DNA of 48,672 nt from a virus. The first letter of the stretch is position 1. The number at the start of each line of letters is the position of its first letter. Shown here piece by piece: positions 1 to 13,384 of this stretch. The position numbers were made by a program, and so were the translations under genes. A model generated the notes under the pieces. It had not been told where the DNA came from. It saw only the letters and a program-made list of their open reading frames with translations, and did not search any database. The DNA lies in IMG/VR virus record IMGVR_UViG_3300046777_002049, positions 1-48,672 of that record; one strand, written 5' to 3'.

Positions 1-159
1 AGCCAGGAGCGCGTCAACGGCTTTCCGATGGCAGTCCGCACCAGTAAGGTCGTAAGGGTAGGGGATGGTGATGGAACCCCGCTCGCAGTAGGCTTTGATC
101 CGGCTGCCCTTGGTGTTAGTGGCGGGGATGTATTTTGAGAGTATGGCTTGGTAGATCAT
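1..159 (-). CDS. Small conserved hypothetical protein, 3' end cut off by window edge
   Basis: Minus-strand reading frame starting with ATG at 159 (MIYQAILSKYIPATNTKG) and running off the left edge without a stop. The 53 visible codons match the first 53 residues of the complete 84-residue gene at 47585-47839, so this is the left copy of that gene. It sits downstream of the 104-residue gene at 231-545, separated by a repeated intergenic element. No known domain is recognised. The sequence is polar with scattered tyrosines and one Cys-His pair, and no membrane segment is seen. Confidence 0.6.
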   Translation of the reverse strand, partial: MIYQAILSKYIPATNTKGSRIKAYCERGSITIPYPYDLTGADCHRKAVDALLA

Positions 160-7863: not shown

Positions 7864-8009
7864 TCGTATCAGCGGGACTTCTGCTGATCGCGTTTGCAAC
7901 CAAACAACTTCTCGAAGGTATCAAAGCCTACAAGGAAGAGGTGGTCTACGAAATAGAGGAGGAGGACGAAGACGACGATGACGATGACGCTGATTACTGG
8001 AAGAAATGA
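7839..8009 (+). CDS. 56-residue membrane protein with acidic tail
   Basis: ATG 7839 lies within the SWIM gene; TGA at 8007-8009 overlaps the ATG of the HNH gene at 8006. Residues 3-20 (IAIIFLIVSAGLLLIAFA) form a single membrane segment. The cytoplasmic or external tail holds a run of Glu and Asp (about residues 38-52) ending DYWKK. Coupled overlaps on both sides support it as a real gene. Function unknown. Confidence 0.6.
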   Translation: MEIAIIFLIVSAGLLLIAFATKQLLEGIKAYKEEVVYEIEEEDEDDDDDDADYWKK

Positions 8010-8287
8010 AGAATGTTTCATCGAGGCAGAAGGAACGTCTCAAAGCCTATTACAAGGTAAGGGACACCTTCATGAAGGCCCACCCTGTGTGTCAATGGCC
8101 CGCCTGCAAAAAGCCTGCGACAGACTGCCATCACTCACGGGGACGCGCAGGCTCCCTGATTTCCGATGAGCGCCACTTCCGTGCTCTCTGTCGAGAGCAT
8201 CACGACCTCTGCTCAAATGAACCCAATCTTGCTAGGTCCGTCTCAATGCTTTGTGAGCGGGGCCTCTGGAACAGTCCTGATGTATGA
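8006..8287 (+). CDS. HNH endonuclease
   Basis: 93 residues, ATGA overlap. It contains a zinc-knuckle CQWPACKKPATDCHHSRGR, with the His-His pair of the HNH active site, then HFRALCREHHDL supplying the Asn/His and second Cys elements. Small HNH proteins are common just upstream of phage large terminases and can be needed for DNA packaging or maturation; the large terminase starts 500 bases downstream. The gene overlaps the RusA-like frame at 8280 by eight bases. A homing endonuclease is less likely because there is no sign of an intron or disrupted host gene. Confidence 0.75.
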   Translation: MKNVSSRQKERLKAYYKVRDTFMKAHPVCQWPACKKPATDCHHSRGRAGSLISDERHFRALCREHHDLCSNEPNLARSVSMLCERGLWNSPDV

Positions 8288-8582
8288 AACTCTTGATCCA
8301 TCATCCCGTGCCCAGCTTGAACAAGCTCTTCGCCATGAACCATTGGCAAAGGCGAAAGGAAAAGAAGGCGACACAGGACGCTTTCGAGTCCGCGTTACGA
8401 GCTTTAGGAGGCGACTCACCGACCAAGACAATCTCGCCCCGAAGTTCTTCATCGACTGTCTCCGCTATGCTGGAGTCATTCCGGACGACTCTCCACAAGC
8501 AATCGATTACACGATCACTCAGGTCAAAGTCCGCAAAAAAGAAGAAGAGCGAACGGAAATCGAAGTAGATGAAGCACCTTAG
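8280..8582 (+). CDS. RusA-like Holliday junction resolvase, family signature split over two frames
   Basis: 100 residues from ATG 8280 in the frame ending at 8582. The second half has the RusA core: RRRLTDQDNLAPKFF with DxDN-type acids, RYAGVIPDDSPQ with the DD pair, and the final strand ITQVKVRKKEEE. The first 35 residues in this frame (MYETLDPSSRAQLEQALRHE) do not look like RusA. The overlapping frame from ATG 8284 reads LLIHHPVPSLNKLFAMNHWQ, a typical RusA N-terminus. Joining them needs a -1 shift. Either the downstream frame is a self-contained variant, or a frameshift or sequence error splits the gene. RusA cuts four-way junctions at stalled forks or packaged branched DNA. Confidence 0.7.
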   Translation: MYETLDPSSRAQLEQALRHEPLAKAKGKEGDTGRFRVRVTSFRRRLTDQDNLAPKFFIDCLRYAGVIPDDSPQAIDYTITQVKVRKKEEERTEIEVDEAP

Positions 8583-8793
8583 AGCCAAAGATGGATCCTA
8601 CTGCAAGGTGGTGCCTGACGGTGAGAGGTGGAAGATCGTCACTTCATTCTTAGGCAACATTGTTGGGTCAAGGTTGGCGCTGGGCTGCAGCTGGCCCGAT
8701 GGCCCGGTTCACGGAATTGAAAGCAGAGAGGAAGCGCAATCGCTCTGCGCGAAGTGGGATGAGATGATGGCCAAGTGCAGTAACAAAAAGTGA
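8569..8793 (+). CDS. Small hypothetical protein
   Basis: 74 residues, ATG 8569, overlapping the resolvase by 14 bases and the terminase GTG by four. The sequence holds CKVVPDGERWKIVTSF and SREEAQSLCAKWDEMM, suggesting a small beta-beta-alpha fold. Two Cys are far apart and no metal site is evident. Position between resolvase and large terminase suggests a DNA-processing or packaging accessory role, by context only. Confidence 0.55.
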   Translation: MKHLRAKDGSYCKVVPDGERWKIVTSFLGNIVGSRLALGCSWPDGPVHGIESREEAQSLCAKWDEMMAKCSNKK

Positions 8794-10583
8794 CTAAACC
8801 TTATTACATCAACACTGCCAAAGGTCAGGCCAAGATCGTCTGGGGCCTGCCTGTGGCTGTGGAAACTCCAGAGATCCATGTCGCTCGTTGGGCTTTTGCC
8901 TACTACGAAGAGGCTCTGAACAAGGGCATCGAAGTCAGTAGGGCAGAACTCTTCTGGTGGATGGTCGAACAACTCTGGGGCACCGGCGCCAAGAAGAAGT
9001 TCATCCGCCATCCTTGGGCCGAGAAGATGACCGAGAAGGCGTGCGAGTATCAGTATCTGGGCATCTCCGGTGCAGGCTCCACAGGCAAGTCCGATTGGGG
9101 CGCGATGTGGGGCATCATCAACTGGTTCAGTGATCCAGAGAAGACCAAGGTTTTGGTCACATCTACGACCATGAAGGACGCCCAGAAACGTATCTGGGGC
9201 TCCATCCGAGACTACTACTATGGTGCTAAAGAGAGGCTTCCGGGTAAGTACGTTCATAGCTTCGGCCAGATTCGGACTTCTGAGAAGGCGTCTGATCCAA
9301 CAGCCAGTGACAAGGCTGGCATAGAGCTGATTCCCTGTAGCCAGAGCAAGGAAGCCCAAGCCATTGGCCGGCTGATCGGCATGAAGGCCCCCAGGCTGAT
9401 CATCATAGCCGACGAGTTGCCTGAGTTGACGGACTCCATCTTGGAAGCAGTCGAAACCAACCTCTCGATGAACCCTGTGTTCCAGATGATTGGTCTAGGC
9501 AACCACGTCAGCTGGCTCGATCCATTTGGTAAGTTCATCCAACCCGAAGCTGGTATCAACTCGGTCACCGTAGAGGACGAGGAATGGAAGACTCAACGCG
9601 GCTGGTGTCTTCACTTCGATGGAACCAAGAGCCCAAACTTCGACTATGAGAAGGATGTATTTCCGATTTACGGACGTAAACAGAAGCGAGAGCACGACAA
9701 ACTCCCGGCAACGTCGATTGGTTACTGGCGATTCTGCCGATCTTTCCCACCGCAGGATTCCGAAAGCGGCCAGATCTACAGTGAGATAGAGATCATCTCC
9801 AATGGCGGCGTCTCCATCCCTCACTGGAAGGGTCCCCTAGTCAAGCTGGCGGCACTTGACCCAGCGTTTACCAACGGCGGTGACCGTTGCTACGGAATCC
9901 AAGGCGTCCTGGGAGAGACTGTAGAGGGGAAGATGACCTTGGCGGTTACACTGACAAAGGAGTTCCATGAAGATGTGACGGACAAAACCGTCCCGCGTAA
10001 CTTCCAGCTGGCCAGGCAGTTCATACAGTGGTGCAAGGAAACCGGGGTTCAGCCCGAAGATGTTGGCGTGGATTCCACAGGCGGTGGTATTCCCTTCTCT
10101 GAGATCCTCATGCAGGAGTGGAGTCCCAGGATCAACCGCATCCAATTCGGCGGAGCGGCTTCAGATCTTCCAGCCTCAGCGACAGATCCAACGCCTGGCA
10201 GGGAAGCCTACAGCAACCGCGTATCAGAGCTTTGGTACCAGGGCGTCTACTACATCAGAGCAAGCCAGATAGCGCATCTCCCTAGGGAAATCGTCCGAGA
10301 GATGTGCGCCAGGCGCTACCAGCACGTCAAAGGTGCGACGACCAAGATTAAGGTCGAGGCCAAGGAGGAGATGAAGCGGCGCCTCAAGGTCAGTCCAGAC
10401 GCAGCCGACTCCTTCTTCATCCTCCTGGAGGTGGCTCGAATCCGGCATTCATTCTTCCCGGAGGCGTTTGGGGACGCTCTGAAAGAAGAGATTGCCAACG
10501 CGGATGCTGAAAGTGAACATGGAGTCAGCGTCCTAGAAGATTTTACCTGCCTCGCCTACGATGATGGTGCCGAAGAATATTAA
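8790..10583 (+). CDS. terL: Terminase large subunit
   Basis: 597 residues, GTG start at 8790 overlapping the previous TGA. The packaging ATPase is shown by Walker A GAGSTGKS (about residues 94-101) and Walker B RLIIIADELPEL (Asp208, Glu209). The C-terminal RNase H-like nuclease has LAALDPAF (Asp357), GVDSTGG (Asp428) and SPDAADSFF (Asp537, Asp540). The motor pumps DNA into the procapsid through the portal and cuts concatemers. Length is normal for the family. The portal gene follows after one small zinc-binding protein. Which terminase clade it belongs to, and so the packaging mode (pac, cos or terminal repeats), cannot be read by eye. Confidence 0.95.
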   Translation: MTKPYYINTAKGQAKIVWGLPVAVETPEIHVARWAFAYYEEALNKGIEVSRAELFWWMVEQLWGTGAKKKFIRHPWAEKMTEKACEYQYLGISGAGSTGKSDWGAMWGIINWFSDPEKTKVLVTSTTMKDAQKRIWGSIRDYYYGAKERLPGKYVHSFGQIRTSEKASDPTASDKAGIELIPCSQSKEAQAIGRLIGMKAPRLIIIADELPELTDSILEAVETNLSMNPVFQMIGLGNHVSWLDPFGKFIQPEAGINSVTVEDEEWKTQRGWCLHFDGTKSPNFDYEKDVFPIYGRKQKREHDKLPATSIGYWRFCRSFPPQDSESGQIYSEIEIISNGGVSIPHWKGPLVKLAALDPAFTNGGDRCYGIQGVLGETVEGKMTLAVTLTKEFHEDVTDKTVPRNFQLARQFIQWCKETGVQPEDVGVDSTGGGIPFSEILMQEWSPRINRIQFGGAASDLPASATDPTPGREAYSNRVSELWYQGVYYIRASQIAHLPREIVREMCARRYQHVKGATTKIKVEAKEEMKRRLKVSPDAADSFFILLEVARIRHSFFPEAFGDALKEEIANADAESEHGVSVLEDFTCLAYDDGAEEY

Positions 10584-11031
10584 CTCCACGCCGCAAGGTC
10601 TGTGGAGGTACACTCATCCCGTTACTGGGGTGAAGTTTAGCGGCGCTTTCTCACTGGGTCGAATGGTGGCTATGGTCGAGGAGTACAATAAGGCAAACAA
10701 CCTCGATCAAATCGTTGGTCTTTATCAAAAGATCATCAATTACATGTGCGAACAAGAACCAGATTGGTGCATGTCCACTGAACCGCCCACTCTGGCTCAA
10801 AGGATTAAGACGTTTTCACAGGCTGCCGCGGAATGGGCCTCTAACGGATTCAAGAATGTACCGCACGAAGTCTTTGAGGCTCGTAAAGCAATCTGCCTTC
10901 AGTGTGTTTACTGGAAGGGGGAGTCAGCTTTCGGTTATGGCGGCTGTGGCAAATGTGGATGTAGTGGACTGAAACTATTTTTACCGACGCAGAAATGCCC
11001 TGATGGGCGATGGGGAGCAATCAATGTATAG
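10561..11031 (+). CDS. Cys-rich zinc-ribbon-like phage protein
   Basis: 156 residues from ATG 10561, overlapping terL by 23 bases. The C-terminal 50 residues hold ICLQCVYWKG, then GGCGKCGCSGLKLFL and KCPDGRWG: seven cysteines spaced for one or two zinc sites. The N-terminal part is helical. Proteins with this Cys-rich tail between terminase and portal occur in many environmental phages without a known role. It overlaps the portal gene by eight bases, so it is co-translated with head genes. It is possibly a DNA-packaging or head-assembly factor, by position only. Confidence 0.65.
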   Translation: MMVPKNINSTPQGLWRYTHPVTGVKFSGAFSLGRMVAMVEEYNKANNLDQIVGLYQKIINYMCEQEPDWCMSTEPPTLAQRIKTFSQAAAEWASNGFKNVPHEVFEARKAICLQCVYWKGESAFGYGGCGKCGCSGLKLFLPTQKCPDGRWGAINV

Positions 11032-13384
11032 CACTGGACTGTATTCCGAACTCAAGGGCCTTAGCGACAGTGGGACACCTCCTAAGACGAGGATCTCCAG
11101 CGCTCGCGATGTCCGCTCGATGTTCACGCGGGCGACCAGCGCCTACGAGAAGCGCCATCAGAAGAACGCCCTAGTTAAGGGTCTGGTGGATGGCAACCCG
11201 CCTTGGCCCAGCAAGACCAAGGACGCCCAACGCTATCGGGCCAACTTCAACAACGGGGAGGGCTATGCCTATCTGGAGACATCGGTCACAGCCTTCTACG
11301 ACGTGTACTCCGAGCCTGAGACCTACGCCACGGTCACAGCCGATGTCAACGATCCCAATTCACAGCTTTATTCCGACATCATCACCAAGCACTTTGATTG
11401 GCTTCAGAGGCAGGACGACGAGATGGACTTCAACATCCAGCTCTCGATCCACGACATGGTCTATTATGGGACTGGACCGCAGCTATTCCTCCGACCTCTG
11501 GATTGGCGTTCCACTGCTGTTCCTCATCGTTCTCTTTATGTCTCTGATGACGAGCGTGCAAATGTGGCATCTTGGCAGTGGTGCATTTTCCAGTTCGACT
11601 ACAACGTCAATGAACTCTGGGACTTCATCGCTGACGAAGAAGCAGCACGCATCAGTGGATGGAATGTAGCCGAGGTGAAGCGTTCGATCATGAACGCCAA
11701 GCCCACCTCATGGACCTCTCCTGAGTGGAATCAGTGGGAAGCCTGGCAGCAGGCCCTCCGAAACAACGACCTCTATCTGGGCTCCCAGTGCGCCAAGGTC
11801 CGCATCGCCAAGATCCTGTACAAGGAGTTCAGTGTAGACGGCGCTGAGCCGAAGATCTCAGAGGCTTGGGTGGACATCGACGCCTCCAGCGACGAGTTCC
11901 TGAATCGCTTTGAGAACCGCTACGACGATATGCGTCAGGCGGTGTGCGCCTTCTACTACGACCGAGGCGATGGCTTCCACCAGTCCATCAAGGGGCTTGG
12001 TGTAAAGATGTATCAGCTGCTGACCTCGCGCATGAGGCTTCAGCTGGCTGCTGTGGATGCTGCATTCGCCACGTCCACCGTCTTCCTCACCTCCAATCAG
12101 CCCACTGGCCGGCAGGCTCTGAGCAACATTCAGTTTGGCGCCTTCACAGTGCTTCCCAACGGCGTCTCGACGATCCAGCAGAGCAATCTCCAAGGAGTGT
12201 TAGAGCCAGCGATTGCAATGGGAGAGCAGTTAGGACGTGTTCTTGATAACAACCTCTCTCAGTACCGGCAGAGGATGGAGCTTCCTTCGGGTAATCCGCC
12301 CACGAAGTACCAAGTACAGGCTCAATTAGCTCAATCTGCCACCCTCGGGAAAACACAGCTCGCACGTTACTACCAGCAACTGGATGAACTGTACGCTGAG
12401 AAGTTCCGCCGTGCATCGAATCCTGACCTGCCGAAGGGTACGAAGAACAAGTGGTTGAAGCTGGCATTGGAGTTCCAGAAGAAGTGTTCGGACGATGGTG
12501 TCCCTCGCGAGATCTTCGAGAAATGCTATGTGAAGGCAACCCGCATCGCTGGTCAGGGCTCTCAGTTCATGCGGGAGCAGAGCCTCAACCAGATCTACGC
12601 CACCTTGTTCCCGGCCCTTCCTGAGGACGGCAAGGAGCGTCTAATCCGGGACATGATCTCGGCCACTGTCGGACCCTCCCTCACCAACCGTTACTGGACC
12701 CGCGGTACGATTGACCCCAATACAGCTGACCAGAACTGGCAGGCTGAGGTTGAGCACGGCATCCTCTACGACGGTGGAGCGGTTCAAGTCACTCCGACGC
12801 AGAACGACATCATTCACCTCACCAAGCACTTCGAGTGGCTGGCTCAGGGTGTCCAATCGGTTCAGCAGGGCGGAGATCTTGCCGAGATCTTTAACAGCCT
12901 CGTTGCTGGTCGAGCTCACGTCGCTCAGCACATGGCCCGTCTTCAGCAGGACGCCTCCAGGAAACAGGAGTTCGCCCAGTTCATGGAACTGTTCAAGTCG
13001 ATCTCCCAATCCATCGACGAGATGCAGCAGATGCTCCAGCAGCAGGCTGAGCAGCAGGCCATGCAGCAGCAGCAGATGGCGCAGGCCCAGGTCTCTGTCG
13101 ATGCGGAGACCATGAAGGCGCAGAACAAGATCGCTCTGGATCAGGCCAAGGCCCAGAACATGATGCAGATCAAGGCGGCCAAGGCGCAGCAGGACATGGC
13201 GCTGAAGGATGCCGAGACGGCTCAGCGTCTGAAGATTGCCCAGGCCACGACGACTCAGGACCTAGCCAACCAGCAGGCTCAACAGACCCAGAAGGTGAAT
13301 GAGGCTGCCATCAAGAATGCCGGCCTGATCGCCAAGCAGCAGATCGCCAACCAGCGACCCATGGTTCCCGGACAAACCATTTGA
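11024..13384 (+). CDS. Portal protein
   Basis: 786 residues from ATG 11024, chosen because GGGGAG (11012-11017) lies six bases upstream; the ATG at 11003 would add seven residues. The portal is the dodecameric ring at the head vertex through which DNA passes. The body carries podovirus-portal-like sequence (YSEPETYATVTADVNDPNSQ; VYYGTGPQLFLRPLDW). The C-terminal 170 residues are a long Gln/Ala-rich helix (QQMLQQQAEQQAMQQQQMAQ), typical of the barrel or coiled coil that extends into the head in P22-like portals. Position just after TerL supports this. Confidence 0.88.
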   Translation: MYSTGLYSELKGLSDSGTPPKTRISSARDVRSMFTRATSAYEKRHQKNALVKGLVDGNPPWPSKTKDAQRYRANFNNGEGYAYLETSVTAFYDVYSEPETYATVTADVNDPNSQLYSDIITKHFDWLQRQDDEMDFNIQLSIHDMVYYGTGPQLFLRPLDWRSTAVPHRSLYVSDDERANVASWQWCIFQFDYNVNELWDFIADEEAARISGWNVAEVKRSIMNAKPTSWTSPEWNQWEAWQQALRNNDLYLGSQCAKVRIAKILYKEFSVDGAEPKISEAWVDIDASSDEFLNRFENRYDDMRQAVCAFYYDRGDGFHQSIKGLGVKMYQLLTSRMRLQLAAVDAAFATSTVFLTSNQPTGRQALSNIQFGAFTVLPNGVSTIQQSNLQGVLEPAIAMGEQLGRVLDNNLSQYRQRMELPSGNPPTKYQVQAQLAQSATLGKTQLARYYQQLDELYAEKFRRASNPDLPKGTKNKWLKLALEFQKKCSDDGVPREIFEKCYVKATRIAGQGSQFMREQSLNQIYATLFPALPEDGKERLIRDMISATVGPSLTNRYWTRGTIDPNTADQNWQAEVEHGILYDGGAVQVTPTQNDIIHLTKHFEWLAQGVQSVQQGGDLAEIFNSLVAGRAHVAQHMARLQQDASRKQEFAQFMELFKSISQSIDEMQQMLQQQAEQQAMQQQQMAQAQVSVDAETMKAQNKIALDQAKAQNMMQIKAAKAQQDMALKDAETAQRLKIAQATTTQDLANQQAQQTQKVNEAAIKNAGLIAKQQIANQRPMVPGQTI

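Follow-up and report, generated by a model that had tools for sequence, protein, structure and literature searches.

The viral contig IMGVR_UViG_3300046777_002049 has a length of 48,672 bases, and this whole stretch is referred to here as the window. Two overlapping open reading frames lie on its plus strand. The outer frame, F0, runs from an ATG at 8280 to 8582 (100 codons), contains RRRLTDQDNLAPKFFIDCLRYAGVIPDDS and encodes a protein beginning with MYETLDPSSRAQLEQALRHEPLAKAKGKEGDTGRFRVRVTSFRRRLTDQDNLAPKFFIDCLRYAGVIPDDS. The nested frame, F1, runs from an ATG at 8284 to a TAG at 8566-8568 (94 codons), contains HPVPSLNKLFAMNHWQRRKEKK and encodes a protein beginning with MKLLIHHPVPSLNKLFAMNHWQRRKEKKATQDAFESALRALGG. 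The two starts are thus 4 nt apart. The F0 frame is already open 5' of the ATG at 8280, and an alternative in-frame ATG is located at 8166. The features of the locus are as follows.

8006..8287, plus strand: HNH-like gene upstream, whose stop overlaps the F1 ATG (ATGA, 8284-8287); from sequence and the HNH families phrog_2323 and phrog_333
8280..8582, plus strand: F0, outer frame, predicted RusA catalytic-core protein, 100 aa; from the ORF, phrog_34/phrog_1682 (RusA), the AF2 core and a core dNN/dSN of 0.13
8284..8568, plus strand: F1, nested +1-frame gene, 94 aa, with a putative RusA-like N-terminal half and a basic tail; from the ORF, conservation and dNN/dNS of 0.16-0.43
8284..8403, plus strand: F1 residues 1-40, comprising a putative N-terminal strand, the PSLN..MNHWQR loop and the first helix, a segment absent from F0; from P10/N13/M18/W21/R23, AF2 and colinearity with the RusA profile
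8280..8378, plus strand: F0 N-terminal linker, open but free of amino-acid constraint under F1; from AF2 pLDDT, w0 of 1.1-2.0 and stop avoidance
8374..8420, plus strand: dual-constrained segment, F1 helix (QDAFESAL) over F0 strand (RFRVRVTS); from w1, w0 and column conservation
8421..8489, plus strand: predicted F0 catalytic residues D48 (8421-8423), D50 (8427-8429), K55 (8442-8444) and D70 (8487-8489)
8404..8565, plus strand: F1 tail, Lys/Arg-rich, over the F0 core; from frame 1 being open in 40/42 representatives and the K+R excess

The ATGA overlap between the HNH-like gene and F1 suggests that their translation is likely coupled. Downstream, the F1 stop TAG directly abuts the start ATG of another ORF (8569-8793), stop and start together occupying 8566-8571, and this ORF overlaps the end of F0 by 14 nt; reinitiation after the F1 stop is possible there. 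The large ORFs at 8790-10583 and 11003-13384 resemble those of the terminase large subunit and portal in size and order. Any PHROG match they gave was weak and without assigned function, suggesting a divergent phage lineage.

Profile searches with F0 matched the RusA families phrog_34 (E 1.3e-8) and phrog_1682 (E 6.9e-8). The score against Pfam RusA was 18.1 bits, under the cutoff of 22.8, and RusA was matched weakly in PDB profile searches. Across 42 relatives, D48, K55, D59 and D70 were invariant and D50 was conserved in at least 90%; the four invariant residues agree with the acidic/Lys set of RusA enzymes. In the AF2 model of F0, built from 42 aligned sequences, residues 1-33 were disordered (pLDDT of 50-59 for residues 1-30) and were followed by a core of strand 35-43, helix 49-63, strand 75-83 and strand 91-98. 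The best PDB matches of this model were the RusA D70N chains 2h8c/2h8e (probability 0.89-0.97, E 0.17-0.3), and its matches in BFVD included named RusA proteins. Computation thus shows F0 as a predicted RusA catalytic core behind a disordered linker.

F1 alone matched no profile family. Its residues P10, N13, M18, W21 and R23 were nearly invariant in relatives. AF2 modeled a loop and helices with a pLDDT of 97 for residues 11-30 and 90 for residues 31-40, and the tail was of low confidence. No strand was seen in the model of F1 alone, and a structure search with F1 gave no informative fold match. When the first ~40 residues of F1 were placed before the F0 core, the phrog_1682 match grew from about profile positions 80-144 to about 29-144, and the concatenation was colinear with RusA profiles. 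Compared with shuffled N-termini, the gains for five representatives were 9.6, 6.3, 1.8, at least ~6, and 4.4 bits. Homology of the first 40 residues of F1 to the RusA N-terminus is therefore supported by the motif and a profile gain of 2-10 bits, but more weakly than the assignment of F0. These results bear out the first-pass annotation, which had described a RusA signature split over the frame from 8284, with the N-terminal half, and the frame from 8280, with the catalytic DQDN and PDD core. The K+R count of the F1 tail was 420, compared with 383 expected from frame 0 alone (z 5.3), and the tail may contact DNA. The modest RusA homology and a tail under constraint of its own would also suit a rather unlikely alternative, that both frames are translated and F1 acts as a regulator, inhibitor or DNA-binding partner instead of the missing nuclease half. 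However, the conserved part of F1 coincides precisely with the RusA segment missing from F0, and it is colinear with RusA profiles.

To compare relatives, positions were counted from the (L/W)N codon of F1, with rel 0 at 8317 in the window. The same dual-frame arrangement was found in ~130 viral contigs, each counted once, from which 43 representatives at <80% DNA identity were taken; their protein identities to the window were mostly 20-50%. Searching IMG/VR with a DNA pattern restricted to the F0 core returned 61 stretches; among the matches listed, all loci had the F1 motif 104 nt upstream, in the frame displaced by +1. Conversely, two patterns restricted to the F1 motif returned 32 and 58 stretches, and all loci long enough to tell contained the RusA core in the same displaced frame. 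Since each search recovered the other half, chance co-occurrence of the halves was excluded. A further core pattern added two loci, both dual. The first core Asp lay 104 nt from the (L/W)N codon in 115 loci, 101 nt in 11, 116 nt in 4 and 107 nt in 2. All of these offsets are 2 mod 3, indicating that indels respect both frames. The two RusA halves were never found in one frame among all loci long enough to tell, so that a sought relative with one intact frame did not appear. The comparison also showed that the earlier impression of an 8280-frame start recurring in relatives was correct.

The arrangement was also present in vir555, an INPHARED record whose host is given as Methanomicrobiales. 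In this record (L139, BK063671.1, 2992-3279), F1 alone is annotated, as the hypothetical protein DBA35050.1; F0, which overlaps it and contains the RusA core, is unannotated. No family member was found in INPHARED with F0 or F1 alone, and two scans of genome contigs revealed no relative. A scan with E. coli RusA returned near-identical copies only. No second RusA match was detected in 34 records, in 12 of which the same profile missed the dual gene itself. At one locus, L129, both frames were broken 3' of the core motif, which may point to gene decay or an assembly error in this copy.

We then assessed whether both frames are translated. With the F1 protein fixed and synonymous codons redrawn over rel -33..57, frame 0 was open in 40/42 representatives, compared with 13.4±2.8 expected, and had 2 stops compared with 47 expected. 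With the F0 protein fixed, 40/42 representatives kept frame 1 open over the initial 129 nt of the core (10.4±2.4 expected), with 4 stops instead of 63. The third frame had stops at the expected level in the same redraw test. On neighboring single-frame genes, the F1-type null was well calibrated (50 open vs 47 expected, of 246) and the F0-type null was too strict (44 open vs 20 expected); 40/42 is far beyond this calibration error in either frame.

Substitution ratios were obtained as simple pairwise counts over 34 independent pairs and not from a phylogenetic model. For F1 (w1) and F0 (w0), respectively, they were 0.16 and 1.10 in 8284-8346, 0.23 and 2.0 in 8347-8373, 0.32 [0.15-0.60] and 0.18 [0.09-0.32] in 8374-8420, and 0.43 [0.32-0.59] and 0.13 in the core. 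The shadow frames of 55 neighboring genes gave 0.85 [0.73-1.00] for w1-type and 1.44 [1.23-1.71] for w0-type ratios, and only after this control was the F1 constraint in the core accepted. As the core w1 of 0.43 lies below the control of 0.85, the F1 tail is constrained past the shadow expectation. The upstream part of F0 was open yet without amino-acid constraint, as would fit a linker. The ~45-nt stretch 8374-8420 was constrained in both frames, in agreement with column conservation. At frame-0-synonymous sites of the core, the rate was 0.127, below half of the control value of 0.281.

In the L006 clade, the best sampled, the periodicity of substitutions changed along the DNA from F0 to F1 and back to F0. 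Upstream of the F1 start, the third codon position of F0 was the most variable (74 vs 20 and 36); further downstream it was the third position of F1, and then that of F0 again. Together, stop avoidance, substitution ratios, separate starts and the ~130 contigs give strong computational support to dual coding, which had been put forward as a possibility from the window's sequence. A sequencing indel, a pseudogene or a chance open frame is, in our estimate, a highly improbable explanation. Shadow frames can remain open by chance at this length, and the single locus L129 is disrupted, but the frame relation was the same in ~130 contigs from many assemblies, and stops were avoided and selection seen in both frames. 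Assembly error, including an indel in the present assembly, was accordingly rejected on these many independent contigs, and a chance open frame on the stop avoidance relative to calibrated controls.

Programmed -1 frameshifting is known from dnaX, IS orfAB and the tail chaperones G/GT. The first-pass annotation had proposed that a -1 shift would join the halves. In such a scheme, ribosomes initiating in F1 would slip around the Lys-rich codons (8350-8370) and move on into F0, making one fused RusA. As in those genes, the frames overlap with a -1 displacement and Lys-rich codons are present. The heptamer A_AAAAAG or similar occurred in 11/43 representatives, and A_AAR in 28/43. However, a canonical slippery heptamer was absent from the window and from 32/43 representatives, and no conserved one was found. 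The A-rich GAAAAG run pointed out near 8360 does exist, but it forms no canonical heptamer in this frame. Stimulatory RNA structure was no better than in shuffles, with folding z scores of -0.25 to 0.52 for five stretches under a pseudoknot-free model. Frame 0 was open upstream of F1, and constrained there in one clade, whereas frame 1 was open and constrained downstream of any shift point. Hence, unlike known -1 frameshift genes, F0 and F1 lack a conserved slippery site and stimulatory structure and are both constrained on the "wrong" side. Because constraint precedes the F1 start in the L006 clade, an F1-to-F0 shift is excluded as the source of the F0 constraint. A fusion would also lose either the F1 helix or the F0 strand: QDAFESAL and RFRVRVTS are both conserved and have bases in common within 8374-8405, so no fused chain can contain both. 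On stops, L006 periodicity, RNA folding and heptamers, frameshift fusion was rejected as the main explanation, and we consider it improbable.

Separate starts were indicated by the sequences upstream of F1. F0 N-termini recurred there in ILRLFPNASPDLLARN-like, MPxWTxxDY-like and GYVEVRKGVYERID-like forms. In ten loci (L017, L019, L050, L069, L086, L090, L093, L102, L127 and L221), the F0 N-terminus upstream of F1 carried a recurring (I)LRxFPNASxxxLxxN-like motif, perhaps a small binding helix. In vir555, each frame had its own SD: AGGAGGCGAG precedes the F1 ATG, and AAAGGA lies a few bases 5' of the F0 ATG. SDs were weak in several loci, the window among them. In the L100/L107/L111 clade, an F0 ATG was found at rel 41 behind GGAG/AGGA, which is formed by the conserved HWER codons of F1. 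Upstream frame-0 stops occurred in this clade alone (rel -25 in L100, 35 in L111), where the F0 start appears to have been relocated to an internal ATG inside F1. Outside it, no internal F0 ATG start was seen. The frame-0 YTG that underlies the His-Trp codons was not conserved and was therefore rejected as a universal internal start.

As the parts of one RusA are spread over F0 and F1, the enzyme is probably assembled from the two products. We therefore consider it likely that nested same-strand genes with their own starts encode an F0 core and an F1 N-terminus that form a heteromeric RusA. Ribosomes coming from the upstream gene would most likely initiate at either ATG, that of F1 being coupled via ATGA. 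F0 would supply the metal site of a RusA-type Holliday-junction resolvase and a flexible N-terminal linker, and F1 would add the N-terminal strand and first helix that are missing from F0, together with a basic tail. The two would then bind each other as a heteromer in place of the usual RusA homodimer, and this complex may resolve junctions, cutting branched DNA in phage replication or packaging.

F0 resembles RusA resolvases (E. coli RusA 1q8r/2h8c; SPP1 G44P; PHROG 34/1682; PF05866) in its core, DxDN..K..DD residues and fold. Those proteins are encoded as one chain in one frame, whereas here the N-terminal half lies in another, overlapping frame. RusA is normally a homodimer, and the E. coli enzyme consists of two identical 14-kDa subunits (PMC3485210). 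In phage lambda, the Rz1 gene lies inside Rz in the +1 frame, and the products form one complex (PMC6139136). The present locus is similar in that a small gene is nested within its partner in the +1 frame, with both apparently translated; but Rz and Rz1 are distinct membrane proteins and not halves of one domain, and the F0-F1 complex is a predicted one. Two-polypeptide phage endolysins also yield two polypeptides of one enzyme from one locus (PMC9430671), but these are in-frame with a shared stop codon, whereas the frames of F0 and F1 differ. Searches of the open-access literature yielded no description of a split or overlapping RusA, and relative to it RusA-type catalysis split over nested frames would be new.

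With slightly less confidence, we favor the wider view that one small enzyme domain is obligately built from two polypeptides encoded in two frames of the same DNA, with each half overprinting the other, in diverse tailed viruses including one assigned to an archaeal host. It would have been overlooked because annotation calls one frame only. If this is true, the locus is a rare case of a catalytic domain whose two halves are encoded on top of one another, with each frame constraining the other. It would provide a natural split nuclease, show how an enzyme can split and then fold back onto its own gene, and reveal a resolvase family in which annotation overlooks the core or the N-terminal half, as in vir555.
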